In this document: positions 474 to 39,985 of the stretch, piece after piece
How the letters are laid out: each line of letters begins with the position of its first letter
Position numbering within the stretch: position 1 is the first letter of the stretch
From: Candidatus Saccharimonadota bacterium
GTDB taxonomy: Bacteria > Patescibacteriota > Saccharimonadia > Saccharimonadales > Saccharimonadaceae
Direction: 5' to 3'
Assembly: GCA_024402895.1 (NCBI GenBank)
Contig: JAKSSX010000006.1
Location: forward strand, 1 to 43,002
DNA: 43,002 nt
Notes under the pieces: model-generated
The model's database searches: none
What the model was told of the DNA's origin: nothing
What the model saw: the letters and a program-made list of their open reading frames with translations, nothing else
Made by a program: the position numbers and the translations under genes

Positions 474-482
474 ATTTTACCA
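474..482 (-). promoter_or_regulatory. Extended -10 promoter of the sulfatase-like gene
   Basis: On the minus strand TGG-TAAAAT ends 9 nt before ATG 464. This predicts a transcript that begins 2-3 nt upstream of the start codon. No recognisable -35 or Shine-Dalgarno is seen. Confidence 0.5.
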
Positions 483-531
483 TATCGGTCTGAATGATTA
501 TACTTATGCTTTCTTTTCTGAAGCTTAAAAT

Positions 532-537
532 TATAAT
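532..537 (+). promoter_or_regulatory. -10 element of comEC, leaderless spacing
   Basis: TATAAT ends 6 nt before ATG 544, the spacing found at many other starts in this window. ATG 544 is in frame with comEC, but its third codon is TGA (550-552); see findings. Confidence 0.5.
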
Positions 538-633
538 TTTTCCATGAAATGAATTCATCGACCGCACATTTCTATTCTGCCAATTGCAATCTCGCTAGTA
601 GTCATCATAATCGCTTTTGTTTCGGAATATATA

Positions 634-1821
634 TTGCCGCGCAAAACTGAGTTGGAGCCACTGTTTGAGAAAAACGTTGTTCTTTCCGGCAGTATTTCTG
701 ATGATGTTGATTTCAAGAAAAATGATTATCGCATACGCCTAAAAACTAATCATGGACCAATATATGTAATGATTGAAAGAATGCCGAAAGGCGTAGAACT
801 AGGGCGCTCAGATTTAATTAGCTTGAAGGGGAAAATCCAGGCGGGCTTCGGTAATTATGTGGCATTCATGTATCATCCTGAAATAATTAAAGTTAGTCAT
901 CCTAGCATGCCGGACTTCTCGAAAGAAGTTCGTGACGCTTTCTCTAAATCAGTTATCGAACAGATAGATAATAGCGAGCAAAGCAACCTAGCTCTGAGCT
1001 ATCTTACTGGCCAGAAAACACTTCTGACGGAAGAGCAGAGTGAAAAGCTGCGTCTTGTCGGCTTGGCGCATGTCGTTGTTGCGTCGGGCTATCATCTTTC
1101 TGTTGTTGTAAGTCTAGCTAAAAAATATTTAGGCAAGATTTCTCGCTTTGCCACGCTCAGTGGAGCGCTAATATTACTTACCGCATATATAAGCGTCACT
1201 GGTTTTACGCCAAGTATGGCACGCGCAGGAATGATGACCGCGATAGTTCTGTTTGCTTGGTATTATGGGCGAAGATTCCATCCGGCCAGGCTAATTATGT
1301 ACGTAATGGCGATAAGTTTAGTTATGGACGGCGGCTATATTTCGAACCTTGCATGGCAACTTTCTTTTGCCTCCTACACGGGAATAATCTTTATTACGCC
1401 ACTAATTACGAATTTTCTATATGGCGACAAAAAGCCGGGCTATTTTGCAAATATAATTATCGCCAGCGTTTCAGCGCAGATTTTTTGTCTGCCGTTCACG
1501 CTGTATTATTTTGGATCGATACCAGTTTTTGCCTTTGTTTCAAACTTACTTATTACGCCACTAATCCCATTCGCAATGCTCGGCACATTTTTATTAGGCA
1601 TTACGAGAATTCCGGTTTTTACATTTTTAACTAAGCTGATTTTAGCATTTCAGCTCAAGGCTATCGATTTCCTCGTATCGTTCCCGTGGGCAAACATTGA
1701 TTTCGGTGCCGGAAAAATAGAAGTATTTTTATTGTTTATTCCAATAGTTGCCACGATATTGATATTACGGCGGTGTACCAGATATAGTTATCGCCCCAGT
1801 TATGTTAAAATATGTGCATGA
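634..1821 (+). CDS. comEC: ComEC/Rec2 competence-domain membrane protein
   Basis: This is a polytopic membrane protein of the ComEC family, which forms the inner-membrane channel that carries single-stranded DNA into the cell. A short soluble N-terminal region (residues 5-90, OB-like) precedes the competence domain. The domain carries LRLVGLAHVVVASGYHLSVV, matching the family's 'GxxHllaiSGlHl' signature, then SMARAGMM and about seven further membrane segments. The C-terminal metallo-beta-lactamase domain of longer ComECs is absent, as in many short versions. The coordinates use TTG 634. The reading frame is open back to 553 and codes there for a plausible basic residue stretch plus TM helix (HRPHISILPIAISLVVIIIA), so the native protein probably begins further upstream. 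The leaderless-type ATG at 544 is blocked by TGA at its third codon. The 3' end overlaps tsaE as ATGA. It fits with the pilus operon downstream as a DNA-uptake component. Confidence 0.85.
   Translation: MPRKTELEPLFEKNVVLSGSISDDVDFKKNDYRIRLKTNHGPIYVMIERMPKGVELGRSDLISLKGKIQAGFGNYVAFMYHPEIIKVSHPSMPDFSKEVRDAFSKSVIEQIDNSEQSNLALSYLTGQKTLLTEEQSEKLRLVGLAHVVVASGYHLSVVVSLAKKYLGKISRFATLSGALILLTAYISVTGFTPSMARAGMMTAIVLFAWYYGRRFHPARLIMYVMAISLVMDGGYISNLAWQLSFASYTGIIFITPLITNFLYGDKKPGYFANIIIASVSAQIFCLPFTLYYFGSIPVFAFVSNLLITPLIPFAMLGTFLLGITRIPVFTFLTKLILAFQLKAIDFLVSFPWANIDFGAGKIEVFLLFIPIVATILILRRCTRYSYRPSYVKICA
1803..1811 (+). promoter_or_regulatory. Extended -10 promoter of tsaE inside comEC
   Basis: TGT-TAAAAT lies in the last codons of comEC and ends 6 nt before ATG 1818. 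The spacing argues for start 1818 over the in-frame ATG at 1812. Confidence 0.55.
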
Positions 1822-2628: not shown

Positions 2629-4149
2629 ATGGATTGGATTATTCCAGCAATCGCTGCGCTCGTCGTTGGTGCAGGTGCCGGCGTTGGTGTTTCTTATGCT
2701 TCAAATAAGCGTAAAGAAAATGGCGGCAAAAACAAAGCAGAAGAACTTGTTCGCAAAGCAAAACACGAAGCTAGCGAAATCGTTCTTAACGCTAAAAAAG
2801 AAGCTACCGATATTCATGACAAGAATCAGAGAGAAGAATCAGAGCGTCGCAAGGAATGGAAAAAGACTGAGGATCGTCTCGCGGAGCGTGAATCTTTGCT
2901 CGATAAGAAGCTTGATCAGTTAGATAAAAAGTCCGAGAATCTTCGCAAAGAAGAAAACGAACTCGAAGACCTAAAAGAAGAAGTCCGCGGTATTCGCACA
3001 AAGGCTCAGGAAAAGCTCGAAAAAATTGCCGGTCTCAGCAAGGCAGAGGCAAAAGAGAAGCTTATGGCTATGACCGAGCGCGATATTAAACAGGATCTTA
3101 CTGAGCTTATTGTGAAAGAACAGAAAGCTCTCCATGACCACATTGAAGAAACTGCAGAATCGATTCTTCTAACTACTATGGAGCGTATGTCTTCTGAGGT
3201 TACGGCCGATCGTACTGTCACTGCGTTGAAGCTTCCTGATGACGATATGAAAGGTCGCATCATCGGTAAGGAAGGTCGCAATATTCAGGCTCTTCAGCAT
3301 GCTACTGGTGTTGATGTTCTCGTTGATGATACTCCAGGCATGGTAGTTCTAAGCAGCTTCGATCCAATTCGTCGCCAGGTTGCTCGTTATGCGTTAGAGC
3401 GTCTCATGAAAGATGGCCGCATTAACCCATCTAGCATCGAAGATGCAGTTGCTCGCGCAAACCGCGAAATCGAAAAAGAAGTTGTTCGTGCCGGCGAAGA
3501 TGCTGCACGCGAAGTTGGCGTAATCGGTATTCCAAGCGAAATCCTTCACCTTCTTGGCGAATTAAAGTTCCGTACTAGCTATGGCCAGAACGTTCTTCTT
3601 CACTCTATTGAAATGGCTCACATGGGCGGCATGATTGCAGAAGAAATCGGTGCAGATGTTCAGGTTACTAAGACTGCATGTTTGCTTCACGATATGGGTA
3701 AGGCTGTTACTCACAAGATTGAGGGTAAGCACGCTGATATCGGCGCAGAGCTCGCAAAGAAGTATGGCATGGGCGATAAAGTTGTTCACGCAATCGCAGC
3801 TCATCATAACGATATCGAGCCAACTACTCCAGAAGCTCTCGTTGTTAAGATTATGGATGCTATTTCCGCAGCACGTCCGGGCGCACGCAATATCTCAGCA
3901 GAGAACTTTGCAGAGCGCATGAAAGCTCTCGAGAATGTTGCTACCAGCTTCCCAGGTATCGATAAGGCATATGCAATCTCTGCAGGTCGCGAAGTCCGTG
4001 TTATTGTTGAACCAAAGCAGATTGACGATCTTTCCGCTCTTAAGCTTGCTCGCGAAATTGCTGACAAGATTGAGGCTACAATGCAATATCCTGGCGTAAT
4101 TAAGGTTAACGTCATCCGCGAAACTCGCGCAATCGAATACGCTAAATAA
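2629..4149 (+). CDS. rny: Ribonuclease Y
   Basis: RNase Y is a membrane-anchored endoribonuclease that initiates mRNA decay. The 506 residues show the full family order. An N-terminal TM helix (IIPAIAALVVGAGAGVGVSY, residues 4-23) is followed by a long charged coiled coil to about residue 150. A KH domain around 200-260 carries GRIIGKEGRNIQ. The HD domain has HSIEMAHM and LLHDMGK, whose His-Asp pair binds metal, and later AAHH. The ATG is preceded by an AGAGG Shine-Dalgarno. The gene is transcribed alone, with its own promoter upstream and a strong terminator behind it. Confidence 0.97.
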   Translation: MDWIIPAIAALVVGAGAGVGVSYASNKRKENGGKNKAEELVRKAKHEASEIVLNAKKEATDIHDKNQREESERRKEWKKTEDRLAERESLLDKKLDQLDKKSENLRKEENELEDLKEEVRGIRTKAQEKLEKIAGLSKAEAKEKLMAMTERDIKQDLTELIVKEQKALHDHIEETAESILLTTMERMSSEVTADRTVTALKLPDDDMKGRIIGKEGRNIQALQHATGVDVLVDDTPGMVVLSSFDPIRRQVARYALERLMKDGRINPSSIEDAVARANREIEKEVVRAGEDAAREVGVIGIPSEILHLLGELKFRTSYGQNVLLHSIEMAHMGGMIAEEIGADVQVTKTACLLHDMGKAVTHKIEGKHADIGAELAKKYGMGDKVVHAIAAHHNDIEPTTPEALVVKIMDAISAARPGARNISAENFAERMKALENVATSFPGIDKAYAISAGREVRVIVEPKQIDDLSALKLAREIADKIEATMQYPGVIKVNVIRETRAIEYAK

Positions 4150-4191: not shown

Positions 4192-4200
4192 TGGTAAAAT
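4192..4200 (+). promoter_or_regulatory. Extended -10 promoter of the pilus operon
   Basis: TGG-TAAAAT ends 6 nt before ATG 4207, predicting a leaderless first gene. It lies directly behind the rny terminator. Confidence 0.6.
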
Positions 4201-4206
4201 ATAAAC

Positions 4207-5064
4207 ATGAGCGTTAATGGCGCTGAGCCTACGGGTGAGGTCAAAAAAGAGATAGAAGAGCCTATTTTGGGCGACAACGGCGTAAACTATGATGTCTACG
4301 CTGAGGATTTTGCGCCTAATAAAACTTCAAATGAAGATACCTTTTTTGATTCGAAAGAATATGCCAAACGCCAAAAGACGGAACTTATTACGAACGTCAA
4401 AGGTGCTGATAAAATTAAGCGCGAAGAAGAAAAACGTGAAGCGGCTGACGAAAAGCGCAAGCTAAAAACTTTACGCAAAGAGGTTCAACAGGGGCAAATT
4501 GCGCCTAAGGAAACTCAGAAAAAGAAGAAAGAAACAGACGAAAAAGCACTTGTTCGTAGATATAAGAGAGCAGAGTTTTTTAAAAAACATGGCAAGAAAA
4601 TTACGATTGCTGTGGTTTTAGTAATTATTTTGTCTGCGACAGCTATCGTAACTACGATTAAGATTTCTAACGAAAAGGAAGAGCAACAGACAAAAGAAGA
4701 AATTGCGGTAGATCTAAGCCATAACGTTAAAGATATAGATGAAGCTCGCGAACATTATGGCGCCGAATCTGAGGCATATTATGAGGCTGTTCAGAGGTTA
4801 ATTAATGAAGCTAAGCATAATGCTAATAAAGCCAATCTATTATTACTAAGAGCTGAAGATTTGGCAAATACTAATACTCCAGAGTTAATCAAAAAAGCAC
4901 TTGAGGACGCTTATGCTGCCGAAGAGTTATATCCAACTATCGAAAGCGCATTTAGAATTGAGGATATCGAGAGAAAGTTGGGTAACGAAGAAAAAGCTAA
5001 CGAATACAAAGCGATAAAAGAAGAGCGCGTCCAAAGCTCAGGACAACCGACGGGAGAGGGCTAG
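4207..5064 (+). CDS. Single-pass membrane protein heading the pilus operon, unknown function
   Basis: I do not recognise a named family. The 285 residues divide into three parts. The first is a long, highly charged, probably helical or coiled-coil cytoplasmic region (residues 1-128, Lys/Glu/Arg-rich). The second is one TM helix (KITIAVVLVIILSATAIVTT, about 130-150). The third is an external alpha-helical domain rich in Ala, Glu and Asn that could be TPR-like. The next gene, for a secreted protein, begins one nucleotide after this stop codon, so the two are co-translated. The position and topology resemble a PilN/PilO-type bitopic assembly protein of type IV pili, but this is a guess from context. 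The start follows the leaderless spacing rule. Confidence 0.6.
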   Translation: MSVNGAEPTGEVKKEIEEPILGDNGVNYDVYAEDFAPNKTSNEDTFFDSKEYAKRQKTELITNVKGADKIKREEEKREAADEKRKLKTLRKEVQQGQIAPKETQKKKKETDEKALVRRYKRAEFFKKHGKKITIAVVLVIILSATAIVTTIKISNEKEEQQTKEEIAVDLSHNVKDIDEAREHYGAESEAYYEAVQRLINEAKHNANKANLLLLRAEDLANTNTPELIKKALEDAYAAEELYPTIESAFRIEDIERKLGNEEKANEYKAIKEERVQSSGQPTGEG

Positions 5065-9160: not shown

Positions 9161-9168
9161 TGTATAAT
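9161..9168 (+). promoter_or_regulatory. -10 promoter of the first prepilin gene
   Basis: TATAAT (9163-9168), preceded by CGCTTATG, ends 6 nt before ATG 9175. The prepilins can thus be expressed separately from the 1356-residue protein. Confidence 0.6.
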
Positions 9169-9174
9169 AAAGAT

Positions 9175-10164
9175 ATGGGCATTGTTCCGGAGAAAGAGCT
9201 AAAAGGTTTTACTATTATTGAGGTAATGCTATTTTTGGCGCTCAGCGGCTTCCTTCTAGCAGGTATTCTTGCCGGAACCGGTTCAAGCATTGCTAACCAA
9301 CGTTACAAAGACGCCGTTCAGGATGCAACTGATGCTTTACGTAGTGCATTCGCGTTCGTTGCTGATACCCAGATTGAAACTCGTAGTAATGGCGAAGGTG
9401 CATGTGGTGGCACAGTTGATGGCTTTAATGATGTCTCTGCTGGCGACAATACGCTTCGTGGTCGCACATCTTGTGCTGTTTATGGCGCCGTAGTCATGAT
9501 TGATGGCCCACTTATTCAGACCACTACTGTTATTGGTCGCGATTATTTTGATTTCATTCGCGCAGCTTACGACGCATCGGTTTCTAATAGCTCAATCAGC
9601 AATGACTTAGCTACTGTTTTGAATCCGGCGAACGATCTAGAACTTTTGAAAGCTCTTCATGTTAATAATCTAGCTTATCATTGTCCTACGGCTGGCAGTT
9701 GTAAAGATGTTGCTGTTGCTGGTGGCGTAAAGCAACAGAAGTTAAAATGGGATACTTCCTTCAAAGCTCCTCGTGGCGAAGAGGATAATAAAAACGAAGA
9801 CCTGAAGCTTACTTTGTTAATTTATCGCTCGCCAGTTAATGGTTCTATTCGCACGATTTCAATGGATAGAGTTATTACTAATAATGACGGTTCTACTGTT
9901 GATTATAGTAATGAATCTAGTTTGTATAGCCTCTCTAGCCAGGGCATCTATCAATTCTTCGGTAAAAACCAAAATAACACTCCATATATGACTCAAAAGA
10001 ATATTTATCTTTGCGTTGATAGTAATGGTGCTGATAGCTATGCTGAGCACCGTAGAATTATCAAGATTGCGAAGAATGCTCACTCTCAGAGTGGTGTCAT
10101 TCTATTAGATATGGATGCTGAAGTATATGAAAACGGTCAAGAGGTATTATGCGACGACAAGTAA
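9175..10164 (+). CDS. Type IV prepilin-like protein 1
   Basis: The N-terminus carries a type III (prepilin) signal: a short leader ending KG followed by FTIIEVMLFLALSGFLLAGI, with the Glu at +5 expected for prepilin-peptidase cleavage and pilin assembly. The roughly 300-residue globular part has paired Cys (ACGG, TSCA, YHCPTAGSC, LCVD, VLCDD) and no close family that I can name. This is larger than typical major pilins (140-180 residues), which suggests a minor pilin or pseudopilin. ATG 9175 is preferred to the in-frame ATG 9154 because 9154 lies upstream of the -10 TATAAT, and 9175 follows that element by exactly 6 nt. It overlaps the next gene by 16 bp. Confidence 0.8.
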   Translation: MGIVPEKELKGFTIIEVMLFLALSGFLLAGILAGTGSSIANQRYKDAVQDATDALRSAFAFVADTQIETRSNGEGACGGTVDGFNDVSAGDNTLRGRTSCAVYGAVVMIDGPLIQTTTVIGRDYFDFIRAAYDASVSNSSISNDLATVLNPANDLELLKALHVNNLAYHCPTAGSCKDVAVAGGVKQQKLKWDTSFKAPRGEEDNKNEDLKLTLLIYRSPVNGSIRTISMDRVITNNDGSTVDYSNESSLYSLSSQGIYQFFGKNQNNTPYMTQKNIYLCVDSNGADSYAEHRRIIKIAKNAHSQSGVILLDMDAEVYENGQEVLCDDK

Positions 10165-13586: not shown

Positions 13587-13671
13587 TGGTGCCCGCGACT
13601 AGACTCGAACTAGCACATCCGAAGACACTAGCACCTGAAGCTAGCGCGTCTACCAATTCCGCCACGCGGGC
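13587..13671 (-). tRNA. tRNA-Leu(CAG)
   Basis: The acceptor stem GCCCGCG/CGCGGGC is intact and the 3' CCA is encoded. The D-arm is GGCGGAATTGGTAGACGC. The anticodon stem-loop CTAGC-TTCAGGT-GCTAG gives anticodon CAG. A long variable arm of the class II type (TGTCTTCGGATGTG) is present, followed by the T-arm with GTTCGAGTC. At 85 nt it is a class II leucine tRNA reading CUG. A divergent TGCTATAAT promoter lies 9 nt upstream of its 5' end. Confidence 0.95.
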
Positions 13672-13679
13672 ATACGCTA

Positions 13680-13700
13680 ATTATAGCATGATGCTATAAT
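13680..13700. promoter_or_regulatory. Palindromic divergent promoter: tRNA-Leu and GT-C gene
   Basis: Two identical extended -10 elements TGCTATAAT are arranged as a perfect 10-bp inverted repeat around a single base. The right copy ends 6 nt before ATG 13707. The left copy ends 8 nt before the tRNA 5' end. Each would use the other's territory as its upstream region. Confidence 0.7.
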
Positions 13701-13706
13701 AGGGTA

Positions 13707-15266: not shown

Positions 15267-15272
15267 TATAAT
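15264..15272 (+). promoter_or_regulatory. Extended -10 promoter of tRNA-Pro
   Basis: TGA-TATAAT, with the TGA being the stop codon of the upstream glycosyltransferase. It ends 12 nt before the mature tRNA 5' end. Confidence 0.65.
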
Positions 15273-15284
15273 ACGCCCTAGAGT

Positions 15285-15360
15285 CGGGGCGTAGCGCAGC
15301 TGGTAGCGCGCGCGGTTCGGGACTGCGAGGTCGCCCGTTCGAATCGGGTCGCCCCGACCA
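15285..15360 (+). tRNA. tRNA-Pro(CGG)
   Basis: The acceptor stem CGGGGCG/CGCCCCG is intact, with discriminator A and an encoded CCA. The D-arm is GCGCAGCTGGTAGCGC. The anticodon stem CGCGG/CTGCG closes loop TTCGGGA, giving anticodon CGG. The T-arm is CCCGTTCGAATCGGG. Length is 76 nt. A C1 start with G72 is usual for bacterial tRNA-Pro. Confidence 0.96.
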
Positions 15361-23504: not shown

Positions 23505-23510
23505 AAGGGT

Positions 23511-25155: not shown

Positions 25156-25161
25156 AAGATA

Positions 25162-25167
25162 ATTATA
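25162..25167 (-). promoter_or_regulatory. -10 element of the dsbA-like gene
   Basis: TATAAT on the minus strand ends 6 nt before ATG 25155, so a leaderless transcript is predicted. Confidence 0.55.
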
Positions 25168-25213: not shown

Positions 25214-25219
25214 TATAAT
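25214..25219 (+). promoter_or_regulatory. -10 element of the alpha/beta hydrolase gene
   Basis: TATAAT in TTGCGCTATAAT ends 6 nt before ATG 25226. This is the same 12-mer as at ruvA. Confidence 0.6.
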
Positions 25220-25225
25220 CTTGTT

Positions 25226-26056: not shown

Positions 26057-26062
26057 TAAAAT
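26054..26062 (+). promoter_or_regulatory. Extended -10 promoter of the phosphoketolase genes
   Basis: TGA-TAAAAT, in which TGA is the stop codon of the hydrolase gene. It ends 6 nt before ATG 26069, predicting a leaderless start. Confidence 0.6.
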
Positions 26063-26068
26063 AAGCAT

Positions 26069-27013
26069 ATGCACGGGTTGGGCATTAATATTAACGACAT
26101 CAATGACCGCATCGACTTTTGTAATTATTTAGCGGTCGCTCAAATTTTCTTGCAAGATAATTTCTTGCTCAAGCGTCCGCTTGAATTTTCAGATATCAAA
26201 CCACGTCTTCTTGGCCACTGGGGTTCTTGCCCAGGTATCAACATTGCTTACGCAAACCTCAAGGCGCGTTTTCCTCATATGCAGTTTATTCTTGGCCCAG
26301 GTCATGGTTTTCCTGCGCTTCAGGCAAACCTTTTCTATGATGGCGATTTGCAAGAATATTACCCAGATGCAACCCATAATCTTCATGGTATCGAATACAT
26401 TTGTAAGAATTTCTCATGGCCATACGGTTTTCCTTCGCACTCCAGCCCAATGACGCCAGGCGTTATTGCTGAAGGTGGCGAGCTTGGCTATTCTTTGGCT
26501 ACCGCTTACGGCGCATCTCTCGGTCGCCCAGACAAATTCATTGCTGTCTTAATCGGCGATGGCGAGATGGAAACCGCAACTGCGCTAGCAAGCTGCAATC
26601 TCAATAAGCTACTAAATTCCGACGGCAACGGTCGTGTTCTTCCAATTCTTCACCTCAACGGTTACAAGATTTCTGCGCCAACTATTTATGGTCGCAGTAG
26701 TGAGCGCGAGCTTCTTCAGCTCTTCCGTGGCTTCGGCTATGATCCAGTAATTGTCGACGGTACTAATACTGAAGAATTCCAGACAGTCCTAGCTGACCTC
26801 AAGAGCAATTCGTTTATCATTATGAAGACGCCAAAGGGCTATACTGGCCCACGCGAGGTTGATGGCGTAAAAGTCGAAGGTAACTGCGCGTCGCATCAGG
26901 TCCCACTTCTAAACGCGAAGACCGACCGCGAACAGCTAAAGATGCTAGAAGATTGGTTAAATTCATATAATTTCAAGGAGCTTTATGATAGATTTGCCTA
27001 CGAGAATAGATAA
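26069..27013 (+). CDS. xfp: Phosphoketolase, N-terminal (TPP pyrophosphate-binding) subunit
   Basis: Phosphoketolase splits xylulose-5-phosphate (and fructose-6-phosphate) with phosphate into acetyl phosphate and a smaller sugar phosphate. This 314-residue protein covers only the first domain of the normal enzyme of about 800 residues. The family motifs are intact: LLGHWGSCPGINIAYANL (first active-site His), GPGHGFPALQANL (second His), GFPSHSSPMTPG with EGGELGYSL (third His), the TPP/metal-binding IGDGEMET and ILHLNGYKISAPT. It ends with NFKELYDRF, where the linker to domain 2 begins in single-chain enzymes. The second half starts inside its last 29 bp in another frame, with its own Shine-Dalgarno. 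Confidence 0.93.
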   Translation: MHGLGININDINDRIDFCNYLAVAQIFLQDNFLLKRPLEFSDIKPRLLGHWGSCPGINIAYANLKARFPHMQFILGPGHGFPALQANLFYDGDLQEYYPDATHNLHGIEYICKNFSWPYGFPSHSSPMTPGVIAEGGELGYSLATAYGASLGRPDKFIAVLIGDGEMETATALASCNLNKLLNSDGNGRVLPILHLNGYKISAPTIYGRSSERELLQLFRGFGYDPVIVDGTNTEEFQTVLADLKSNSFIIMKTPKGYTGPREVDGVKVEGNCASHQVPLLNAKTDREQLKMLEDWLNSYNFKELYDRFAYENR

Positions 27014-28160
27014 TCCAGGTGAAGAGCAGGGCTCTAGTGCACAGGTTTTTGGTGACGCTTTGCGCGAAGAAATGTATCGCTATGAAGATTTTTACTTCTT
27101 CTCACCAGATGAAACGACTTCTAATCGCCTTTCTGCAGTTTATGACGCAACCGATCGCGCTTGGACTCGCCATGTAGAGCCATGGGATAAAAGCCTCGCT
27201 CCAAACGGTCGCGTTATTGAGATGCTTTCCGAAAATACATTATTCGCAGCAATGGCTGGCCATATTCTTAGTGGCGGTCGCGGTTGTATGACTTCTTATG
27301 AAGCATTCCTTCCGATTATTTCCTCTCAGCTCGATCAGCATCTAAAGTTCTTGAAGCAGAGCAGCGAATTTGAGTGGCGCAAAGACGTTCAGCCTCTTAA
27401 TATTCTTTCGACTTCTTGCTGGCAGCGCCAGGATCATAACGGCTACACGCATCAGAATCCAGCACTTATTTCTAGCGTTCTCTCAAAGCCATCCAATCGC
27501 GTAAACTGCTATTTCCCAGCAGACGATGTATCCGCAGCTGCAGCTTGGGAGCATATGAGCTCCACTAAGAATGTTGTGAATCTTACAACATTTAACAAGA
27601 ATCCTCAGCCACGTTGGATTGATATTAATCATGCTCGCTATCAGCTTGGCGACGGTCATGGCTGCTCGATTTATCAGTTCGCTTCCGATGAAAACCCAGA
27701 TATTGTAGTTGCTGCTATCGGCGACATTCCTACAACCGAAGCATTAGAGGGTATTAAGCTCGCTAAGGCAGAAGCTCCAAATCTTAAGGTTCGCTTCGTT
27801 GGTATTAGCGCACTTTCCTATGCTGCAATCGGTACTACGGACAATAAACTTCTTCCTCATGATTTCGATGACGTATTCACTCGCAGCAGGCCAATCGTTG
27901 TTAACTTCCATGGTTATTCCGAGACTATTCGCTCAATCTTCTCTCACTACGTAAATCCGATTCGTCTATCTGTTCATGGCTACGAAGATCAGGGCTCAAC
28001 CACCTCGCCGCTCGACGAGCTTGCTCGCAATCACTGCTCACGCTACGATATCGCGGCAGACATTCTAGAACGTTCCGGTAATTATGGCCACGCTCGCAAA
28101 TTCGAGGATTATATCATCGAAAATGCCCATTTTGCGCACCTTACTGGTCTAGATAAATAG
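26985..28160 (+). CDS. xfp: Phosphoketolase, C-terminal subunit
   Basis: This 391-residue protein supplies the remaining two domains of phosphoketolase: FFSPDETTSNRLSAVYDATD (with the catalytic Glu of the family's 'GPDETxSNRL'), SCWQRQDHNGYTHQNP (the His that contacts substrate phosphate) and a C-terminal domain with FHGYSETIRSIF and SVHGYEDQGSTTSP. With the preceding gene every conserved block of the enzyme is present once, in order. The total of 705 residues is about 90-100 shorter than usual, mostly through a missing inter-domain linker. ATG 26985 has AAGGAG 4 nt upstream. The frame is +1 relative to the first gene and the overlap is 29 bp, so translation is probably coupled rather than frameshifted. 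Confidence 0.93.
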   Translation: MIDLPTRIDNPGEEQGSSAQVFGDALREEMYRYEDFYFFSPDETTSNRLSAVYDATDRAWTRHVEPWDKSLAPNGRVIEMLSENTLFAAMAGHILSGGRGCMTSYEAFLPIISSQLDQHLKFLKQSSEFEWRKDVQPLNILSTSCWQRQDHNGYTHQNPALISSVLSKPSNRVNCYFPADDVSAAAAWEHMSSTKNVVNLTTFNKNPQPRWIDINHARYQLGDGHGCSIYQFASDENPDIVVAAIGDIPTTEALEGIKLAKAEAPNLKVRFVGISALSYAAIGTTDNKLLPHDFDDVFTRSRPIVVNFHGYSETIRSIFSHYVNPIRLSVHGYEDQGSTTSPLDELARNHCSRYDIAADILERSGNYGHARKFEDYIIENAHFAHLTGLDK

Positions 28161-28169: not shown

Positions 28170-28178
28170 TGCTAAGAT
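28170..28178 (+). promoter_or_regulatory. Extended -10 promoter of the VirB6-like operon
   Basis: TGC-TAAGAT, preceded by CGCTTA, ends 6 nt before ATG 28185. Confidence 0.6.
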
Positions 28179-28184
28179 AAAAAT

Positions 28185-29210
28185 ATGAATGAGGATGGGA
28201 ACCCAAATTTGCCACAAAGCCCTATTTTTTCAGACCCTAACACTGAGACTGAAGTAGGAGCTCCGATTACTAGTGGCAACATAAATCAGCCTATCGCGCC
28301 TAATACTTCCAATCAGGAAAGAGCGCGTAGTTTCTTTGGTGCTGCATCGCGCAGGCCACAACAGACAAGTACAGTTAATCAGATTGACTCAGCTGCAAAG
28401 CGCGAGCTTCAATCTTACATGAGCAGTGATGCTGATAGTTTATATATCGTAAATGATGTTAAGCCTAAAAAGAGTAAAAAGCCCCTCTTCATCGCTCTTG
28501 GTGCAATTGCGGTAGTTGCAATTGTAGTTGTCGCTATCATTATGGGTACGAGTTCCAAATCCGTAAATAAAAACGACATTATTACTGCTTTTAATGAGTT
28601 TGAAGCAGACTATGAGAACGTGCTTTCTGTATACGACTACGACGAAGGTGATATTTCTAAGATTCTAGAGAGCAAAATTAAAGAAACTAGTCTCTTTATT
28701 ATGCAAGATAATGTCGTAAATGAGACAACCAAAGCTCTTGAGAAGGTGAAGAGTAGCTATGCTAATATGGAAAAAAACTCGCCAGAGAAACTTCTACCAG
28801 AAGGAGAGAGAGCGCAATTTAATGATGCAAAAAATAAAGCTAAAGAGCATATCGATATTATCGAGAGCAACGTAGCTCTCTTCAGCAGCCTTAATAAAGC
28901 CTATATTAATACTGTTAGTGATCTTGTAAAAGGAAAGATAGAGACAACCTCTGGCTGTAGTCTTAAAACTGACGCAATGGAAGCATTAGAAAAAGACAAA
29001 AAAACTGCTGAAATTGCGAAGAAGTATTATAAAGCAGTATGCGATATTAACGATGACGTTCTTTTAGGTGTTAATAGAAGTGACAAAAGTGACTATAGTG
29101 TCTCGGATGCTAAGAGGGAAGTAGTCAAGAACTTAGGTAGCTTGTATGACGTTAATACGACGAGGGAATATCTCAGAGGAATGCGCGAGGACTTAGAAAA
29201 TGAAAAGTAA
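28185..29210 (+). CDS. Single-pass membrane protein upstream of the VirB6-like gene, unknown function
   Basis: I do not recognise the family. The 341 residues consist of three parts. The first is a low-complexity Pro/Asn/Ser/Thr-rich cytoplasmic N-terminus (1-98). The second is one TM helix (PLFIALGAIAVVAIVVVAII, about 101-120). The third is an external, mainly helical domain rich in Lys, Asp and Glu with a Cys pair (SGCSLKT, AVCDIND). The topology resembles the first gene of the pilus operon at 4.2 kb, which likewise precedes a large exported protein. Its last codons overlap the next gene by 11 bp. A co-translated accessory subunit for the VirB6-like protein is a reasonable inference. Confidence 0.65.
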   Translation: MNEDGNPNLPQSPIFSDPNTETEVGAPITSGNINQPIAPNTSNQERARSFFGAASRRPQQTSTVNQIDSAAKRELQSYMSSDADSLYIVNDVKPKKSKKPLFIALGAIAVVAIVVVAIIMGTSSKSVNKNDIITAFNEFEADYENVLSVYDYDEGDISKILESKIKETSLFIMQDNVVNETTKALEKVKSSYANMEKNSPEKLLPEGERAQFNDAKNKAKEHIDIIESNVALFSSLNKAYINTVSDLVKGKIETTSGCSLKTDAMEALEKDKKTAEIAKKYYKAVCDINDDVLLGVNRSDKSDYSVSDAKREVVKNLGSLYDVNTTREYLRGMREDLENEK

Positions 29211-33490: not shown

Positions 33491-34503
33491 TGGCCTAACT
33501 CCATTGGTTCTTGCTCTAGCGTGTAGCCGAATTTTTCTTTTACGCGATCAATAATTTCTTGACGCGCAGCTGCGAGATCGGCGTAGTCGCGAGCACTTTC
33601 ATTAATTAATACTAGGGAAGCCTTATCTGAAACGCGCATGCCGTGGAAGATTTTACCTTTTAGGCCTGCGTTTTCAATGAGCCATCCGGAAGGAATCTTT
33701 CCGCCATCCCAAACTGGAATACCGGCTGCTTCTGCGGCGCGAATTTCTGCTTCGCTGTTAAGATAAACATTTTTAAAGAAGCTACCACTGCTTGCAATCA
33801 TATCTGGATCTGGAAGCTTTGCTTCGCGTACGGCGCGAACTGCGAGACGAATGGTCTCTGGAGAATAATCCTCAATGCCGTTATCATCGAGATATTTCTG
33901 CAAGCTGTTATAAAACGGAGGCTTGAGCTCCTTGTGCTCTAGACAGACAACAACTTTCGTAATGAAATAACGTCCAACTGTGCTGCCACTATTGAAGATG
34001 CTATGGCGGTAACTTAGATCGAGATCGATTTTCGGAATCTCAACGAACTCTTCAAGCAGTGTATCGTAAGCGCGAACGTAAACGAGTGTCTGAGCGATAT
34101 CTTGTCCGTAGGCGCCAACATTCTGAACTGGAGCCGCGCCGACCGTGCCAGGAACCGCACTAAGCGCCTCAATACCGGAGAAGCCTAGGCTAGTAGAGTA
34201 GCAGACGAAATCATCAAGCAATTCGCCGCTATAAGAGTAGAGCTCGATACGATTATTATATTCATCACTTTCGACGCCCATTCCGCGAATTTTATTAACA
34301 AGAATTACACCTTCAAAGCCACCATCACGGCCAATAATATTACTACCAAGACCGAGAACATATACCGGGAGACCTTGTTCGCCGGCAAAAGCGTACGCTT
34401 CCGGAATGTCTTCTTCGGACTCGATATCAATGACGTAGCGAGCATTACCGCCAAGTCTCATAGTAGTTAGGGTAGAAATTGCAATGTTTTCGCGAATCTT
34501 CAT
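33487..34503 (-). CDS. murB: UDP-N-acetylenolpyruvoylglucosamine reductase MurB (type I)
   Basis: MurB is the flavoenzyme that makes UDP-N-acetylmuramate, the second committed step of peptidoglycan synthesis. It begins with TLTTMRLGGNARY, contains the FAD-binding YVLGLGSNII and GFEGVIL, then SAVPGTVGAAPVQNVGAYGQ, and the catalytic Ser in SSGSFFKNVYL. The 338-residue length and the insertion with SYRHSIFN (Tyr of the type I loop) identify the E. coli-like type I form. Its leaderless-type promoter is a palindrome shared with the divergent membrane-protein gene, only 22 bp from start codon to start codon. Confidence 0.96.
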   Translation of the reverse strand: MKIRENIAISTLTTMRLGGNARYVIDIESEEDIPEAYAFAGEQGLPVYVLGLGSNIIGRDGGFEGVILVNKIRGMGVESDEYNNRIELYSYSGELLDDFVCYSTSLGFSGIEALSAVPGTVGAAPVQNVGAYGQDIAQTLVYVRAYDTLLEEFVEIPKIDLDLSYRHSIFNSGSTVGRYFITKVVVCLEHKELKPPFYNSLQKYLDDNGIEDYSPETIRLAVRAVREAKLPDPDMIASSGSFFKNVYLNSEAEIRAAEAAGIPVWDGGKIPSGWLIENAGLKGKIFHGMRVSDKASLVLINESARDYADLAAARQEIIDRVKEKFGYTLEQEPMELGQ

Positions 34504-34509
34504 TAGTAT

Positions 34510-34519
34510 ATTATATAAT
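34510..34519. promoter_or_regulatory. Palindromic divergent -10: murB and the membrane protein
   Basis: ATTATATAAT contains TATAAT on both strands, overlapping by two bases. Each hexamer ends exactly 6 nt from its own ATG (34503 minus, 34526 plus). The 22-bp intergenic gap thus serves two leaderless genes. Confidence 0.75.
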
Positions 34520-34525
34520 ATTATT

Positions 34526-35113
34526 ATGGATAAGCTGAAACGTGGCTTAATTTACGCAATCAGGGCGTGCTTTGTAATATTCGCCGGTCTTTTCTTGGTT
34601 TGGATTTTGCTAGATCCGAACTATAACAAATGGGGCGGCGTGCTTTCTGGTATCGTTTTACCTTTCTTGCCCGTAATTGTTGAGCGCGTATTCAAGACGA
34701 AAATTGCCTTTCGTATTCAGCTTCTATACTACATGTTCTTATTCGTCGCACTCGATATGGGAATCTGTATGGACATGTATAAAACTGTTCCATATTTCGA
34801 TAAGGTTGTTCACTTTGGCTCCGGTATTCTGTCTACGATTATCGGCTACTATGCAATTATCTTCTTTAAGGCGAAGAAAACCCCAATCGCTTTTCGCATC
34901 ATCTTTATTATAGGCGTAAGTATGCTCGTGGCGGTTGCCTGGGAATTCTTTGAGTTCGCTTGCGATAAATTCCTTGGCCAGAACATGCAACAGCTTGTTT
35001 CTGTCGGTGTCGACGATACTATGTTTGATCTCCTTGCAGCTACTATCGGTTCCGGTATTGGCGCATATTTGTTTACGAAACCAAAATTCGTTGAAGCTCT
35101 CGAAAAAAACTAA
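34526..35113 (+). CDS. Polytopic membrane protein, YjdF/DUF2238-like
   Basis: The 195-residue protein has about six TM helices: YAIRACFVIFAGLFLVWILL, then VLSGIVLPFLPVIVERVF, and later IIFIIGVSMLVAVAWEFFEF. The motifs FDKVVHFGSG, AWEFFEFACDKFLG and VDDTMFDLLAATIGSGIGAY resemble the conserved His/Asp/Glu positions of the DUF2238 (YjdF) family, whose function is not established. The start follows the shared palindromic promoter by 6 nt, so the longer in-frame extension upstream is rejected. It stands alone. The region after it is the dnaK control region. Confidence 0.72.
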   Translation: MDKLKRGLIYAIRACFVIFAGLFLVWILLDPNYNKWGGVLSGIVLPFLPVIVERVFKTKIAFRIQLLYYMFLFVALDMGICMDMYKTVPYFDKVVHFGSGILSTIIGYYAIIFFKAKKTPIAFRIIFIIGVSMLVAVAWEFFEFACDKFLGQNMQQLVSVGVDDTMFDLLAATIGSGIGAYLFTKPKFVEALEKN

Positions 35114-35254: not shown

Positions 35255-37144
35255 ATGAGTAAAATTATTGGTATCGACCTCGGTACGACCAACTCGGCAT
35301 TCGCTTACATGGTCGCAGGTAAGCCAGAGGTTATTACTAACAGCGAAGGTGACCGCACTACGCCATCCGTCGTTGCCATTACTAAGAAGGGCGATCGCCT
35401 AGTTGGTAAGGTTGCACAGCGTCAGCGTGTTACTAACCCAGAAAACACTATCTATGGCATCAAGCGTCTCATCGGCCGCAAATTTAGCGACAAAGAAGTA
35501 GAGAACGATAAAAAGAATGCTCCATACAAGATCGTAAAGAAGGGTGACGGCGTCGCAGTAGAATTTGGCGGCAAAGAATACACTCCAGAAGAAGTTTCTG
35601 CAATGATTCTCAGCAAGATTAAAGCTGACGCAGAGGCATTCCTTGGCGAGAAAGTTACTGAAGCTATCATTACTGTTCCTGCATACTTCGACGATTCTCA
35701 GCGCCAAGCAACCAAAGATGCTGGTAAAATTGCTGGCCTCGAAGTTCGCCGTATCATCAACGAGCCTACCGCAGCAGCACTTGCTTACGGTCTAGAAAAG
35801 AATGAAGACCAGAAGATTATTGTCTTCGACCTTGGTGGTGGTACATTCGATGTTTCCGTCCTCGAGCTTGGTGATGGTGTCTTTGAAGTTAAGTCTACTA
35901 ACGGCGATACTCACCTTGGTGGTGAAGACTTCGATAACAAGATTGTTGATTACATTCTCGACAGCTTCAAGAGCGAAAATGGTATCGATCTCCGCAGTGA
36001 TGCAGCAGCTATGCAGCGCATTAAGGACGAAGCAGAGAAGGCAAAGAAAGAGCTTAGCTCCGCAACTGAAATCGAGATCAACCTTCCTTACATTACTGCA
36101 GACGCAGATGGTCCTAAGCACCTAGAGCTCACGCTTACTCGCGCAAAGCTCGAAGAGCTCGTAAAGCCATTGCTCGAGCAGCTTGATGGCCCAGTTGAGC
36201 GCGCATTGAAAGATGCTGGCCTCGCTCCATCCGATATTGCAGAGGTAGTTATGGTTGGTGGTATGACTCGTATGCCAGCAGTCGTAGAACGCGTTAAGAA
36301 ACTCTTCGGTAAGGATCCAATGCAGGGTGTTAACCCAGATGAGGTCGTTGCAGTTGGTGCAGCTATCCAGGGCGGCGTTCTCGCTGGTGACGTTAAGGAT
36401 GTTCTCCTTCTCGATGTTACTCCATTGACTCTCGGTATTGAGACCATGGGCGGCGTACGCACTCCACTTATCGATCGCAACACTACTATTCCTACCAGCA
36501 AGTCTCAGGTCTTCTCAACCGCAGCTGATAACCAGCCACAGGTAGAAATTCATGTTCTTCAGGGCGAACGCGAAATGGCTTCCGACAACAAATCTCTCGG
36601 TCGCTTCATTCTCGACGGTATCGCACCAGCTCCACGCGGCATCCCACAGATCGAAGTTACCTTCAACCTTGATGCTAACGGTATTCTAAACGTTACTGCG
36701 AAGGATAAAGGTACCGGCAAAGAGCAGAGTATTACTATTCAGAACTCTGGCAACATGAGCAAAGAAGATATCGAAAAAGCACAGCGCGATGCAGAAGCTC
36801 ACGCAGAAGAGGATAAGAAGAAGAAAGAAGCTATCGAAGCTAAGAATATTCTCGAAAACTCTATCTATCAGGCAGAAAAGATGCCGGATGAATACAAAGA
36901 TAAGATTTCTGACGAAGATAAGGAGACTATCAAGAAGGCAGTTTCCGAAGCTAAGGAAAAGCTCGAAAAGAACGCAGATGATAAAGATGCGCTCGAAGCA
37001 GCAACCAAGGCTCTCAACGATGCAATCATGCCAATCGGCGCAAAGATGTATCAGGCAGCTTCTGAAGACAAGAAAGACGACGCAAAGTCCGACGATAAGA
37101 AGGATGATGACGGCGCAGTCGAAGGCGAAGTAGTCGACAAATAA
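35255..37144 (+). CDS. dnaK: Chaperone DnaK (Hsp70)
   Basis: DnaK is the ATP-dependent Hsp70 chaperone. The 629-residue sequence is full length: [16 protein letters not shown] opens the ATPase domain, with AVITVPAYF-type segment ([20 protein letters not shown]), [16 protein letters not shown] and [13 protein letters not shown]. The linker [15 protein letters not shown] leads into the substrate domain, and the C-terminus ends in the disordered acidic lid tail with [12 protein letters not shown] strong AAGGAGG ribosome site precedes ATG 35255. Expression is predicted to be repressed by HrcA through two CIRCE elements. grpE and dnaJ are not adjacent, so the usual hrcA-grpE-dnaK-dnaJ order is broken up here. 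Confidence 0.99.
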
Positions 37145-37196: not shown

Positions 37197-39590
37197 TTAT
37201 AAAGCTGCTTTAATCATATCTTCGTCAATAGCAATCGTGTCACCAGAATCGGTAGCGCCGGACAAGACTGCGCGAGCGACGATATTCTCGACCGTCTTTG
37301 AGACGATGCGGCGCATTGGGCGCGCACCAAGCTTAGGGTCGTAGCCACGTTCAACGAGCAAAGCCTTAGCTTCAGACGTGAGTGATACGGAAATCTTGCG
37401 AGGCTCAAGCGTCTTATTAACGCCAGAGATAATCAAGTCGACGATAATGAGCAATGCTTCCTTTGTGAGCGGCTGGAAGACGCAAATCTCATCAAAGCGG
37501 TTCAAGAACTCAGGCTTAAACTCGCCGCCAGAAATCAAATCATTCGTCAAACGTTCCTTAATCAAGGACATATCGAGACCCTGATCAATGTAATCGCGAA
37601 TATTATTTGCACCAGCGTTAGATGTTGCGACGACAATCGTATCGCGGAAGCTAACCTCACGGTTCTTTACGTCGCGCAAAATACCTTCATCGAGCAACTG
37701 AAGCAAAGTAGTCAAAACGAGTGGATGCGCTTTTTCAATCTCATCGAGCAAGACGACAGAGAATGGATGCTTCATAACCTGAGCAGTTAAGCTCAATTCG
37801 TCTGTTGCGCCATCAGCAATCAAACGCTGAACGTCGTCTGCGGAAACATATTCGTTCAAATCGATACGAACAATTTCACCTTCACCCTTGAAGTAGACTT
37901 CAGAGATTGCTTTTGCGAGCTCGGTTTTACCTACACCGGTAGGGCCAAGGAAGAGGAAGGTGCCAATTGGGCGGTTCTCATTGCGAACACCGGCAGCAGA
38001 GCGACGAAGCGCGTCACTAACAGCGGTAACGGCCATATCCTGACCAACCAAGCGTTCGTGAATGAGCGATTCCATATTGAGCAACTTCTCGCGCTCGCTT
38101 TCATCCTGCGAAGACTGCATTTTAACGCCATAAGTCTTTTCGATTGCTTCCTGAACTGAAGTATCGGTAACGAAACCATTCTCTGCATATTTTCCGGCAG
38201 CCTCGAGCAAGTTAAGCGCGCGACCTGGCATTACGAGGTCGTGAACATAACGTTCAGAAAGATGATAAGCTTCGCGCAACGACCAATAGGTATAAGTAAC
38301 GCCTTCCTGGTATTCGAGAATAGGTACATGGTCCTGCATGACCTTGAAGGTTTCTTCCTCGGTTGCAGGTTCAATCATAATTTTATTAAGTGCATTTGCG
38401 AGTGCTGCCTTCTTTGCAGAAATTTCCAAGTAGCGCTGCTGGTCCATGGTAAGAATGACGCGTAAGCGACCGCCTTCGAGCACAGGCAAAAGAATATTAG
38501 AAATATCTACCGAACCAACGCCTTCTTCAAAGAACATCTGAGCGTTATCGAGCCAGAGGATTACGTTCTTTGCGTAGAAAGTCTCATTCAAAATACGAGT
38601 CATTAAACGCTCAAGCTGACCGCGTTCGCCGGCACCACTAATCAAAGCAGACGCATCGAGTTTGAAGACCTGACGGAATTTAATGCGTGACGAAATCTTG
38701 TTGTCGGCATTAAGAATCTCGGAAGCAAACTCATTAACGAGCGTACTGCGGCCAGAACCTTCTGGGCCAATAATTGCAACGTTTTGTCGACCGCCTTTTG
38801 AAAAGACATCAATCATTTGGGAGAGATTTTCACGATGTAAGTCGACGGATACATTGCCGCCACCACGAGTGCTTTCATGGGCCTTAGAAATGTTAACGGC
38901 ATAACTATCGAGCAAAGGCGTATAACCGAACATTAAATCGCGTGCAAAACCGCCAGTATGGCGCTTCAAATTGAGACCTTTAACGAGGTCGTTTAGATAA
39001 TTAAACCAGTTAAGACCGTCATAAAGATCGGAAATTTCGAGCTTCATGGATTTCAAAATCTGCTCATAATTCGGTACACATTCAATAATTGCGACAGCCA
39101 AAACGCCGCCAGAGATAACTTCGGATTTTGTCTTTTCGCGAATCTCGAGCGCCTTATCATAGACCGCATCCATTTCATTAGGAATAAGAGCTGAAACTGC
39201 CTCCATCATACGTGGCGTAATTGAGTAACGCATTGCGAGGAAACCGCCGCTGCGAGTTCTGTAGTACCATTTTGCGATATCTTGCGGAGTAGTGCTCTTA
39301 GTGATGCGAGCTAAACACTCGTTACTGAGAAGATCATTTACAGTGTTACCTGAACCGATTGGGATATGCTTAAGTTCATATTTACCCCAAATTAAAATCT
39401 CTGCAGGAAGGGAAGCGAAACCAATCAAAATCCAGCCCAACGAATTACGGTAAGCGAGAATAACTGCGGCGCCAAAACCGACTAAGGCTAGCATTGAAAT
39501 CCACAAAACTGCTTTTACTGGAGTCGAATTAATGACTTTATCTGCGCGCGCCTCAACTGCACGACGACTAAAACTACTAAACTTTGCCAT
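37197..39590 (-). CDS. Membrane-anchored ClpA/ClpC-like AAA+ ATPase with degenerate first ATPase domain
   Basis: The 797-residue protein starts with two TM helices (AVLWISMLALVGFGAAVILA and LGWILIGFASLPAEILIW, about residues 27-66), unlike soluble ClpA/C. A divergent Clp-N-like helical region follows (about 80-200). The first AAA+ domain has a Walker A of GPEGSGRST (near residue 275) with Arg in place of the essential Lys, and its Walker B reads ILWLDNAQ instead of DE. The second AAA+ domain is intact: GPTGVGKTELAK (near 550), VVLLDEIEKAH, ATSNAGANN, EFLNRFDEI and GARPMRR. The IGF/LGF loop that docks ClpP is not visible between sensor 1 and the arginine region, so ClpP partnership is doubtful. 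A TAATG overlap couples it to the small membrane protein upstream. Confidence 0.88.
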   Translation of the reverse strand: MAKFSSFSRRAVEARADKVINSTPVKAVLWISMLALVGFGAAVILAYRNSLGWILIGFASLPAEILIWGKYELKHIPIGSGNTVNDLLSNECLARITKSTTPQDIAKWYYRTRSGGFLAMRYSITPRMMEAVSALIPNEMDAVYDKALEIREKTKSEVISGGVLAVAIIECVPNYEQILKSMKLEISDLYDGLNWFNYLNDLVKGLNLKRHTGGFARDLMFGYTPLLDSYAVNISKAHESTRGGGNVSVDLHRENLSQMIDVFSKGGRQNVAIIGPEGSGRSTLVNEFASEILNADNKISSRIKFRQVFKLDASALISGAGERGQLERLMTRILNETFYAKNVILWLDNAQMFFEEGVGSVDISNILLPVLEGGRLRVILTMDQQRYLEISAKKAALANALNKIMIEPATEEETFKVMQDHVPILEYQEGVTYTYWSLREAYHLSERYVHDLVMPGRALNLLEAAGKYAENGFVTDTSVQEAIEKTYGVKMQSSQDESEREKLLNMESLIHERLVGQDMAVTAVSDALRRSAAGVRNENRPIGTFLFLGPTGVGKTELAKAISEVYFKGEGEIVRIDLNEYVSADDVQRLIADGATDELSLTAQVMKHPFSVVLLDEIEKAHPLVLTTLLQLLDEGILRDVKNREVSFRDTIVVATSNAGANNIRDYIDQGLDMSLIKERLTNDLISGGEFKPEFLNRFDEICVFQPLTKEALLIIVDLIISGVNKTLEPRKISVSLTSEAKALLVERGYDPKLGARPMRRIVSKTVENIVARAVLSGATDSGDTIAIDEDMIKAAL

Positions 39591-39970
39591 TAGAATACTA
39601 CCCCCATCGAACTAACGATAATACCGATAACTGGCAAAGCCGGAACACATGGCCACAAAACCGCTAAGAGCAAGCCGAAGACTAACTGGAGACTAAGCGT
39701 AATAATGCCTGCAACAATAATGAAGGTACGTACAATAAAGCCGATTACGCGCGAGAGTGTTCTGTCAAAGAAAGCAATTAAAGCGCCCTCGAGGCCACCT
39801 TTTTCGCCAGTTTCGTCAGCAGAAATCTGCCTAAATGGCTGGAATAAAGTTTTTAATAACAAACCGATAGAGAAAAAATCGGCCATATTTCGCATTTTGG
39901 CGCGAAAACCATCAAAATATATCATCCACCCCCTGAAATACCACCACTGTAAAAAGCTAACGGCTAACAT
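39590..39970 (-). CDS. Small membrane protein coupled to the Clp-like ATPase
   Basis: A 126-residue protein with an N-terminal aromatic-rich stretch (FLQWWYFRGWMIYFDGFRAK), an amphipathic middle (PFRQISADETGEKGG) and two long hydrophobic segments near the C-terminus (about 73-92 and 95-123). I know no named family. Its stop shares an A with the start of the membrane-anchored AAA+ gene (TAATG), so the two are translated together and probably form one complex at the membrane. The start follows TGATATACT by 6 nt. Confidence 0.72.
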   Translation of the reverse strand: MLAVSFLQWWYFRGWMIYFDGFRAKMRNMADFFSIGLLLKTLFQPFRQISADETGEKGGLEGALIAFFDRTLSRVIGFIVRTFIIVAGIITLSLQLVFGLLLAVLWPCVPALPVIGIIVSSMGVVF

Positions 39971-39976
39971 GCTTAT

Positions 39977-39985
39977 AGTATATCA
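39977..39985 (-). promoter_or_regulatory. Extended -10 promoter of the Clp-like operon
   Basis: TGA-TATACT on the minus strand ends 6 nt before ATG 39970, so a leaderless transcript is predicted. Confidence 0.5.

Follow-up and report, generated by a model that had tools for sequence, protein, structure and literature searches.

Leaderless genes, whose mRNAs begin at the start codon, have mostly been discussed for archaea, Actinobacteria and Deinococcota. In the last of these, leaderless genes with an adjacent −10 motif were reportedly described by de Groot in 2014. Such '−10-motif adjacent to ORF' genes make up about 30% of deinococcal open reading frames (ORFs), with the −10 hexamer some 6–7 bp before the start and with transcription rising when a −35 element is added (PMC12340547). 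Zheng (2011) likewise took genes with a TA-like signal some 10 bp before the start as leaderless, and in Lactococcus this signal was accompanied by a TG extension and probably a missing −35 (PMC3160421). GeneMarkS-2 (Lomsadze 2018) predicted leaderless transcription in 21.6% of bacterial species (cited in PMC9581028), and in mycobacteria and streptomycetes a large share of genes have the start codon at the 5′ end (PMC4633059, PMC3898074, PMC9031893), GUG being an efficient leaderless start in these systems (PMC9031893). Here we analysed a 43,002-nt stretch of DNA from a small symbiotic Saccharibacterium (the window; contig JAKSSX010000006.1 of the 785,451-base assembly GCA_024402895.1, 87.8% complete), in which TATAAT-like −10 hexamers recur exactly 6 nt before ATG codons, and followed this arrangement through the rest of the genome and its relatives. 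The number of nucleotides between hexamer end and start codon is called the gap. We propose that the gap-6 genes are leaderless genes, a reading to which the sequence evidence leads us to assign a probability of roughly 90%.

The arrangement resembles that of Deinococcota in having a −10 hexamer 6–7 bp before the ORF without a −35, beside classical genes with −35, −10 and ribosome-binding site, and its share of ORFs is about a quarter in this genome against about 30% there. The deinococcal motif is TANNNT with a variable middle, and pprI starts with GTG, whereas here the signal is TRTGn-TATAAT, followed practically by ATG only and with a pyrimidine at −1. With the TA-led genes of Zheng (2011) it shares the TA-like upstream signal, the TG extension and the missing −35; Saccharibacteria are not among the phyla named for such genes in the relevant section of PMC3160421, where one unclassified genome is left without a name. 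As in mycobacteria and streptomycetes a large share of genes would be leaderless, but no GTG stands at gap 6 behind TATAAT. No report of leaderless genes in Saccharibacteria was found in a partial literature coverage, mostly without subscription papers: in the excerpts of PMC7441243, PMC6851277 and PMC10434106 'leaderless' occurs in reference lists only, and in that of PMC12641178 the matter is limited to one remark on YchF. Leaderless genes with an adjacent −10 are already well known; the stricter rules and the clade-level expansion are the interesting part here.

Spacing of the hexamer

A first-pass annotation of the window had listed 14 ATG codons at which a −10-like hexamer ends exactly 6 nt upstream and two with 9 nt, at 464 (minus strand) and 18027, and reading the sequence returned the same gaps at all of them. 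Among the 14 hexamers are nine TATAAT, three TAAAAT (1818, 4207 and 26069), one TAAGAT (28185) and one TATACT (39970). The TGn said to precede many of them abuts six (1818, 4207, 13707, 26069, 28185 and 39970), and all but one of the 14 ATGs, namely 544, lead into a real reading frame. In the gene table of the window (33 genes), 12 genes have a −10-like hexamer, defined as at least a 5/6 match to TATAAT, at gap 6; 28185 adds a thirteenth, weaker case.

Exact TATAAT before the ATG of ORFs of at least 100 codons occurs 8 times at gap 6 in the window and 0–1 times at each other gap from 0 to 30. In the whole genome, 88 exact TATAAT-N6-ATG sites compare with 10 of the reversed pattern, 3 at gap 12 and 2 with GTG at gap 6. 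In a 283-kb set (12 stretches of the same genome plus the window, 233 genes called), exact TATAAT precedes an in-frame candidate ATG 25, 10 and 4 times at gaps 6, 7 and 8 and 0–4 times elsewhere (gaps 0–35); with one mismatch allowed, A2 and T6 being kept, the counts rise to 50, 19 and 7, where the average gap has 5.5 (range 1–11). The excess above background is about 59 gene-gap counts in 233 genes, or about a quarter of genes. The loci of the 80 best ruvB relatives from named genomes (1.38 Mb in total; 76 Saccharibacteria, three titled 'bacterium' and one Candidatus Nanosyncoccus alces, L055) gave 207, 56 and 27 sites at gaps 6, 7 and 8 and 0–17 at the other gaps up to 30, up to about 50 of the 207 being ruvB itself. 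In 150 kb of Escherichia coli K-12, strict TATAAT occurred 0 times at gap 6 and once at gap 7. Chance is ruled out by the gap-shift, reversed-pattern and GTG controls, and the genome-wide histogram of hexamer-to-start distances, the check that the first-pass annotation had set for itself, peaks sharply at 6 nt.

No Shine–Dalgarno (SD) core was found at any candidate start in 72 of the 76 genes of the 283-kb set that bear the signal (gap 6–8, at least 5/6). The signal stands before 34/74 genes behind a divergent neighbour, 15/48 genes more than 60 nt behind a same-strand neighbour, 11/31 at 21–60 nt, 14/67 at 20 nt or less and 2/13 at stretch edges (divergent versus at most 20 nt, p = 0.002). 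The earlier statement that the first gene of an operon is typically leaderless therefore holds in part: the signal is commoner at genes behind a divergent neighbour, but some closely following genes carry it as well.

Sequence marks of the probable transcription start

If the A of the ATG is +1, the base before it is −1. This base is a pyrimidine at 206/209 gap-6 sites in the 80 loci, compared with 157/267 SD-led ATGs and 4206/8653 in-frame ATGs. Counted with one row per protein family (80 gap-6 leaderless and 43 SD-led families), the figures are 74/80 and 23/43 (p = 1e-6); in other classes of the phylum a pyrimidine is found at 127/150 among the matches listed. Immediately ahead of the start, bacterial polymerase favours a purine on the template strand and hence a pyrimidine on the other strand (PMC5730371). 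Because the −1 base would be absent from a leaderless mRNA, its constraint must act on DNA. The −1 pyrimidine is best read as focusing, since with a purine at that position polymerase could begin one nucleotide too soon and so create an unwanted one-base leader.

Start codons are restricted as well. Behind TATAAT at gap 6 we counted 235 ATG, 2 TTG and no GTG (0/237), unlike what a degenerate TANNNT signal with GTG starts would give, and behind TANNNT in the window's own genome 50 ATG, 2 GTG and 3 TTG; SD-led candidates comprised 318 ATG, 55 GTG and 48 TTG (versus the gap-6 set, p = 1e-19). RNA polymerase in general initiates well on G too, so the near-exclusion of GTG and TTG points to translation. 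Non-AUG leaderless starts are inefficient in E. coli (PMC9031893), where leaderless translation is reportedly resistant to kasugamycin (PMC5230787). On the Deinococcus deserti plasmids (250 kb), loose gap-6 matches comprised 11 ATG and 7 GTG, with a −1 pyrimidine in 11/18; once matches containing GG were dropped, 8 ATG and 6 GTG remained, with a pyrimidine in 8/14. Small as it is, this plasmid sample points to tighter ATG-only and −1 rules in Saccharibacteria than in D. deserti.

In an alignment of 192 leaderless promoters, T-R-T-G-n stands ahead of TATAAT, and the −35 position is without a motif. TGn precedes the hexamer at 200/286 TATAAT-N6-ATG sites (orthologs included), compared with 30% of 2078 TATAAT, and in 43/80 families. 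A −35, scored as at least a 4/6 match to TTGACA, occurs in 17/80 leaderless families (controls 15, 18 and 17) versus 21/43 SD-led families (controls 5, 10 and 9; p = 0.002). SD-led genes with an upstream TATAAT have the same extended −10, often with a TTGACA-like −35; their seventh nucleotide after the hexamer is A in 67% of families, and the sixth follows no pyrimidine rule. The −1 rule is thus stricter in just those genes that transcription from a wrong base would damage.

Transfer RNA genes provided an independent, if rough, ruler. Among 163 tRNAs (loci L001–L080 and L093–L104 and the window), exact TATAAT lies 7–12 nt before the mature 5′ end in 94 places, less than 7 nt in 2 and 13–49 nt in 17, giving a sharp lower edge at 7 nt. 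The seventh nucleotide is A in 16/16 tRNAs with gap 8 and in 49/76 with gap 8 or more. The spacing implies that pre-tRNA leaders would be only a few nucleotides long. In Nanoarchaeum equitans, promoter spacing reportedly puts the tRNA transcript start at or near the mature 5′ end, and the present spacing is alike in this respect. That archaeon has leaderless tRNAs (PMC10100707), whereas Saccharibacteria use a bacterial −10 and leaders of a few nucleotides are implied for most tRNAs. RNase P RNA was not found in 283 of 785 kb; the remaining genome and rnpA were not searched.

With regard to the machinery, the genome (88% complete) yielded one sigma-70 region-2 match, identified as RpoD, and alternative sigma factors were set aside on this count. 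The RpoD sequence retains a VHMVET stretch, a putative counterpart of the extended −10 contact of E. coli sigma-70. A 16S search gave matches in 36/61 relatives' genomes; of 12 genes taken for the anti-SD, 11 carry CCTCCTTT and the twelfth CCTCCTTA. Loss of the anti-SD as a driver found no support, as all 12 tails keep CCTCCTT, and loss of initiation factor 3 (IF3) or ribosomal protein S1 was rejected: IF3 is present in 143/147 genomes of the class, and the window's own genome has S1 domains (four matches in one 380-aa frame).

Orthologs and distribution across the phylum

Upstream of ruvB in the 80 relatives, a −10-like hexamer stands at gap 6 in 51, gap 7 in 12 and gap 8 in 5, so that the module is present at gap 6–8 in 68; 9 are SD-led and 3 unassigned. 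In most rows the N-termini (M-A/G-I-E-R type) can be aligned whichever mode is used, and the flanks differ freely among distant relatives, leaving the module as the shared upstream feature. On the ruvB tree, the leaderless and SD-led modes need at least 3 changes. Six of the nine SD-led loci use TCGGAGG, four of these with GTG, and the other three SD calls are weaker. The six (L025, L026, L029, L034, L062 and L071) form one clade with TCGGAGG and a GTG (four) or ATG start, which, judged by sequence, is a clean switch of ruvB to SD-led initiation.

A murB search covered 26 genomes of the genus, 3 of them without a match. In 20 of the resulting 23 loci, the window's genome included, a −10-like hexamer lies at gap 6, and in one at gap 8. 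The two murB genes without a −10 of their own (L108 and L110) immediately follow a tRNA-Arg gene, with which they might share a transcript; murB of L109 lies behind one too, yet has a −10. Several murB promoters (L114–L125) carry a TTATGCGCCTGG-like stretch directly upstream of TGGTATAAT, while the farther flanks differ; TATGCGCCTGG is exact upstream of murB in L115, L118 and L121, and the stretch is possibly an operator or a second promoter element. For ruvB and murB, wrong start annotation was rejected because the N-termini can be aligned between relatives. The mechanically called ruvB ORF begins with a GTG located 18 nt ahead of the conserved ATG, an example of how starts may be misplaced by gene finders relying on SD sites.

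Counts of exact TATAAT-N6-ATG in 147 genomes of the class showed how uneven the signal is. The median per genome is 81 in the window's genus g1 (n = 9), 107 in g2 (n = 28) and 126 in g10 (n = 1), with 35–62 in g11 and g38 (n = 3) and 33–59 in g24 (n = 3), against medians of 25 for the family's remaining genera (n = 39), 19 for the order's remaining families (n = 37) and 31 for the remaining orders (n = 27). At gap 12 every group has a median of 5–13, and the gap-6/gap-12 ratio is 6 to 14 in g1, g2, g10, g11 and g38, 3.5 in g24, 2.7 for the family's remaining genera, 2.1 for the order's remaining families and 5.2 in other orders; gap 6 exceeds gap 12 in 143/147 genomes. When TGn was required, 268/286 genomes of the phylum had at least one site, mostly 0–20, with 86–102 in three g2 genomes and up to 36 and 30 in single genomes of other classes. 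The density that the first-pass annotation singled out does stand out against relatives (medians 81 and 107 versus 19) but not against Deinococcota, with about 30% of ORFs (PMC12340547). Since the module is abundant in some genera of this ultrasmall, genome-reduced bacterial lineage and rarer in most sister genera and families, single genes such as ruvB, which occurs in both modes, allow its gain and loss to be traced. The ratio of 5.2 in other orders indicates moderate leaderlessness farther out, which weakens a purely recent origin and slightly lowers the weight that we give to the wider scenario set out below.

Competing explanations and individual sites

The reading of the A of ATG as +1, taken over from the first-pass annotation, is well supported by spacing, the −1 pyrimidine, the near-exclusion of GTG and TTG, the extended −10 without −35, the orthologs and the tRNA edge. 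We suggest that polymerase with RpoD, the sole sigma-70 factor detected, would recognize a short TRTGn-TATAAT promoter without a −35, and that RNA synthesis would begin 7 nt downstream of the hexamer, at pyrimidine-ATG. The mRNA would then begin with 5′-AUG, carrying neither leader nor SD site, and the ribosome most likely initiates directly on the 5′-terminal AUG in a 70S-type reaction, by analogy with leaderless translation in other bacteria. The strict −1 pyrimidine may reflect selection that focuses transcription on one base. Beside it stands a second gene class with an SD site, a longer leader and the extended −10, often with a −35. That the actual 5′ ends lie at the ATG is thus what we infer for the gap-6 class.

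Several observations weigh against this picture. The −1 pyrimidine is less strict in the window's own genome, at 75 of 88 sites, among which are chance hits and at least one tRNA promoter, and at 23/26 sites in ORFs, and in the 80 loci it is weaker at gap 7 (82%) and gap 8 (61%), so that some such sites may have leaders of 1–2 nt or several starts. At tRNA-Ser promoters, with gap 7 in 19/19, the seventh nucleotide is a pyrimidine and the sixth a purine in 18/19, so that the seventh cannot always be +1 and the tRNA ruler locates the start no more closely than about the sixth, seventh or eighth nucleotide. IF3 and S1, which inhibit leaderless translation in E. coli (review PMC9031893), are both present. 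The genome's own 16S gene was not found in the assembly, for which reason the anti-SD was taken from relatives. Loose TANNNT counts gave an odd gap-7 peak in E. coli K-12 (16 versus 1–6 elsewhere), and histograms of this kind were abandoned as unreliable. Two of the 14 sites in the window are poor examples of leaderless starts. ATG 544 (532–546, plus strand; TATAAT at 532–537) is a doubtful gene start that reads ATG-AAA-TGA (M-K-stop), its in-frame stop being codon 3 and the frame open beyond, which could reflect a frame break, an assembly error or a different start. ATG 1818 (tsaE; TAAAAT; 1806–1820, plus strand) overlaps the stop of the upstream gene in an ATGA junction; this ambiguous site could be a coupled start.

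A real −10 from which transcription starts 1–3 nt upstream of the ATG would leave very short leaders. Of 48 families with sites at gaps 8 to 10, 50% do carry A as the seventh nucleotide, which would mean leaders of 2–4 nt, the gap-8 tRNAs share this A throughout (16/16), and tRNA-Ser promoters look started at the sixth or eighth. We nevertheless regard such leaders as improbable for the gap-6 class, in which the ATG itself supplies A as the seventh nucleotide and a pyrimidine precedes it in 74/80 families. A shade less probable still is that most transcripts covering these ATGs come from promoters lying farther upstream, with the adjacent −10 as a secondary or cryptic one. The signal in 14/67 genes at most 20 nt from a same-strand neighbour and the ATGA overlap at 1818 would fit this; however, the signal is commoner behind divergent neighbours (34/74), and the module itself is the shared upstream feature of distant ruvB relatives and likewise of most murB loci. 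The idea that the AT-rich hexamer is not a promoter but a translational signal in the mRNA, an S1-type A/U element replacing the SD site, can draw on the S1 domains of this genome (four matches in one 380-aa frame) and on AT-rich upstream biases that have been discussed as S1 sites (PMC5397173). It is very hard to reconcile with one-base spacing precision, the TRTGn extension, the occurrence of the hexamer at tRNA genes as well and the −1 pyrimidine rule, which SD-led genes do not follow, and we give it hardly any weight.

Beyond the leaderless reading of the gap-6 genes, we tentatively put forward a wider scenario that we consider possible rather than probable: a few genera of one Saccharibacteria family may have rebuilt their gene starts around a 20-nt TRTGn-TATAAT-N6-ATG module with a −1 pyrimidine, selected for single-base start accuracy. 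One sigma factor would then serve a two-tier genome of −35-less, leaderless, AUG-only genes and −35/SD genes, in which tRNA leaders have likewise shrunk to a few nucleotides. If true, high leaderlessness would stem from an expansion specific to this lineage, with individual genes switching mode, and would be more than a relic of early bacterial translation. In practice, the −1 pyrimidine rule offers a simple, checkable sequence mark of leaderless starts, and the compact module could be used for promoter design in Saccharibacteria genetics.

The remaining gap-6 sites of the window are as follows. ATG 4207 (4195–4209, plus) has TAAAAT preceded by TGG; ATG 9175 (TATAAT; 9163–9177, plus) opens a product with an N-terminus that looks pilin-like by eye and with no match to any protein family; and ATG 13707 (13695–13709, plus) of a PMT_2 family gene follows TGC-TATAAT. 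ruvB starts at 20666 (20664–20678, minus; TATAAT at 20678–20673; module kept in relatives) and ruvA at 23511 behind TATAAT (23499–23513, plus). The TATAAT-led ATGs 25155 (25153–25167, minus; thioredoxin-like) and 25226 (25214–25228, plus; alpha/beta hydrolase-like), whose family matches are below cut-offs, are divergent with an ATG-to-ATG distance of 70 bp. At 28185 (28173–28187, plus) the signal is TATGC-TAAGAT, its hexamer matching 4/6, below the −10-like score; a longer CGCTTATGCTAAnAT context containing the extended −10 (TRTGn) occurs there and at 9175. ATG 39970 (39968–39982, minus) follows TGA-TATACT. Short-leader variants with gap 9 precede ATG 464 (462–479, minus; TAAAAT at 479–474) and, with TATAAT, ATG 18027 of murJ (18012–18029, plus).

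SD-led contrast genes, all on the plus strand, are rny (RNase Y; GAGG; 2629–4149), ftsH (GTG start; 16098–17993), the rubrerythrin gene rbr (AGGAGG; 20784–21323) and dnaK (AGGAGG; 35255–37144). The SD subset proposed for the window could be retraced in these four, whose SD cores were seen, but not in rplS, a real gene at which the start caller found no SD. Two tRNA genes of the window illustrate the ruler: TATAAT (13685–13680) lies 8 nt before the mature 5′ end of tRNA-Leu (13671–13587; 13587–13685 with promoter, minus), whose promoter is a false TATAAT-N6-ATG match at 13673, and a TATAAT lies 12 nt before that of tRNA-Pro (15267–15360 with promoter, plus). The repeated sequence CGCTTATG was considered as a possible regulator motif.

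The TATAAT-led ATGs 34503 of murB (34501–34515, minus) and 34526 (34514–34528, plus) diverge from a shared 10-bp palindromic promoter, ATTATATAAT (34510–34519), with 22 bp separating both ATGs. Fifteen divergent TATAAT-N6-ATG pairs lie within 120 bp in loci L001–L080 and L093–L104 and the window, some of them being tRNA promoters. Last, ATG 26069 (TGA-TAAAAT; 26057–26071, plus) opens a phosphoketolase N-terminal domain. The phosphoketolase extends over two overlapping ORFs, with XFP_N in 26069–27013 and XFP plus XFP_C in 26985–28160; the second has its own AGGAG, and 26069–28160 is either a split gene or a frameshift.

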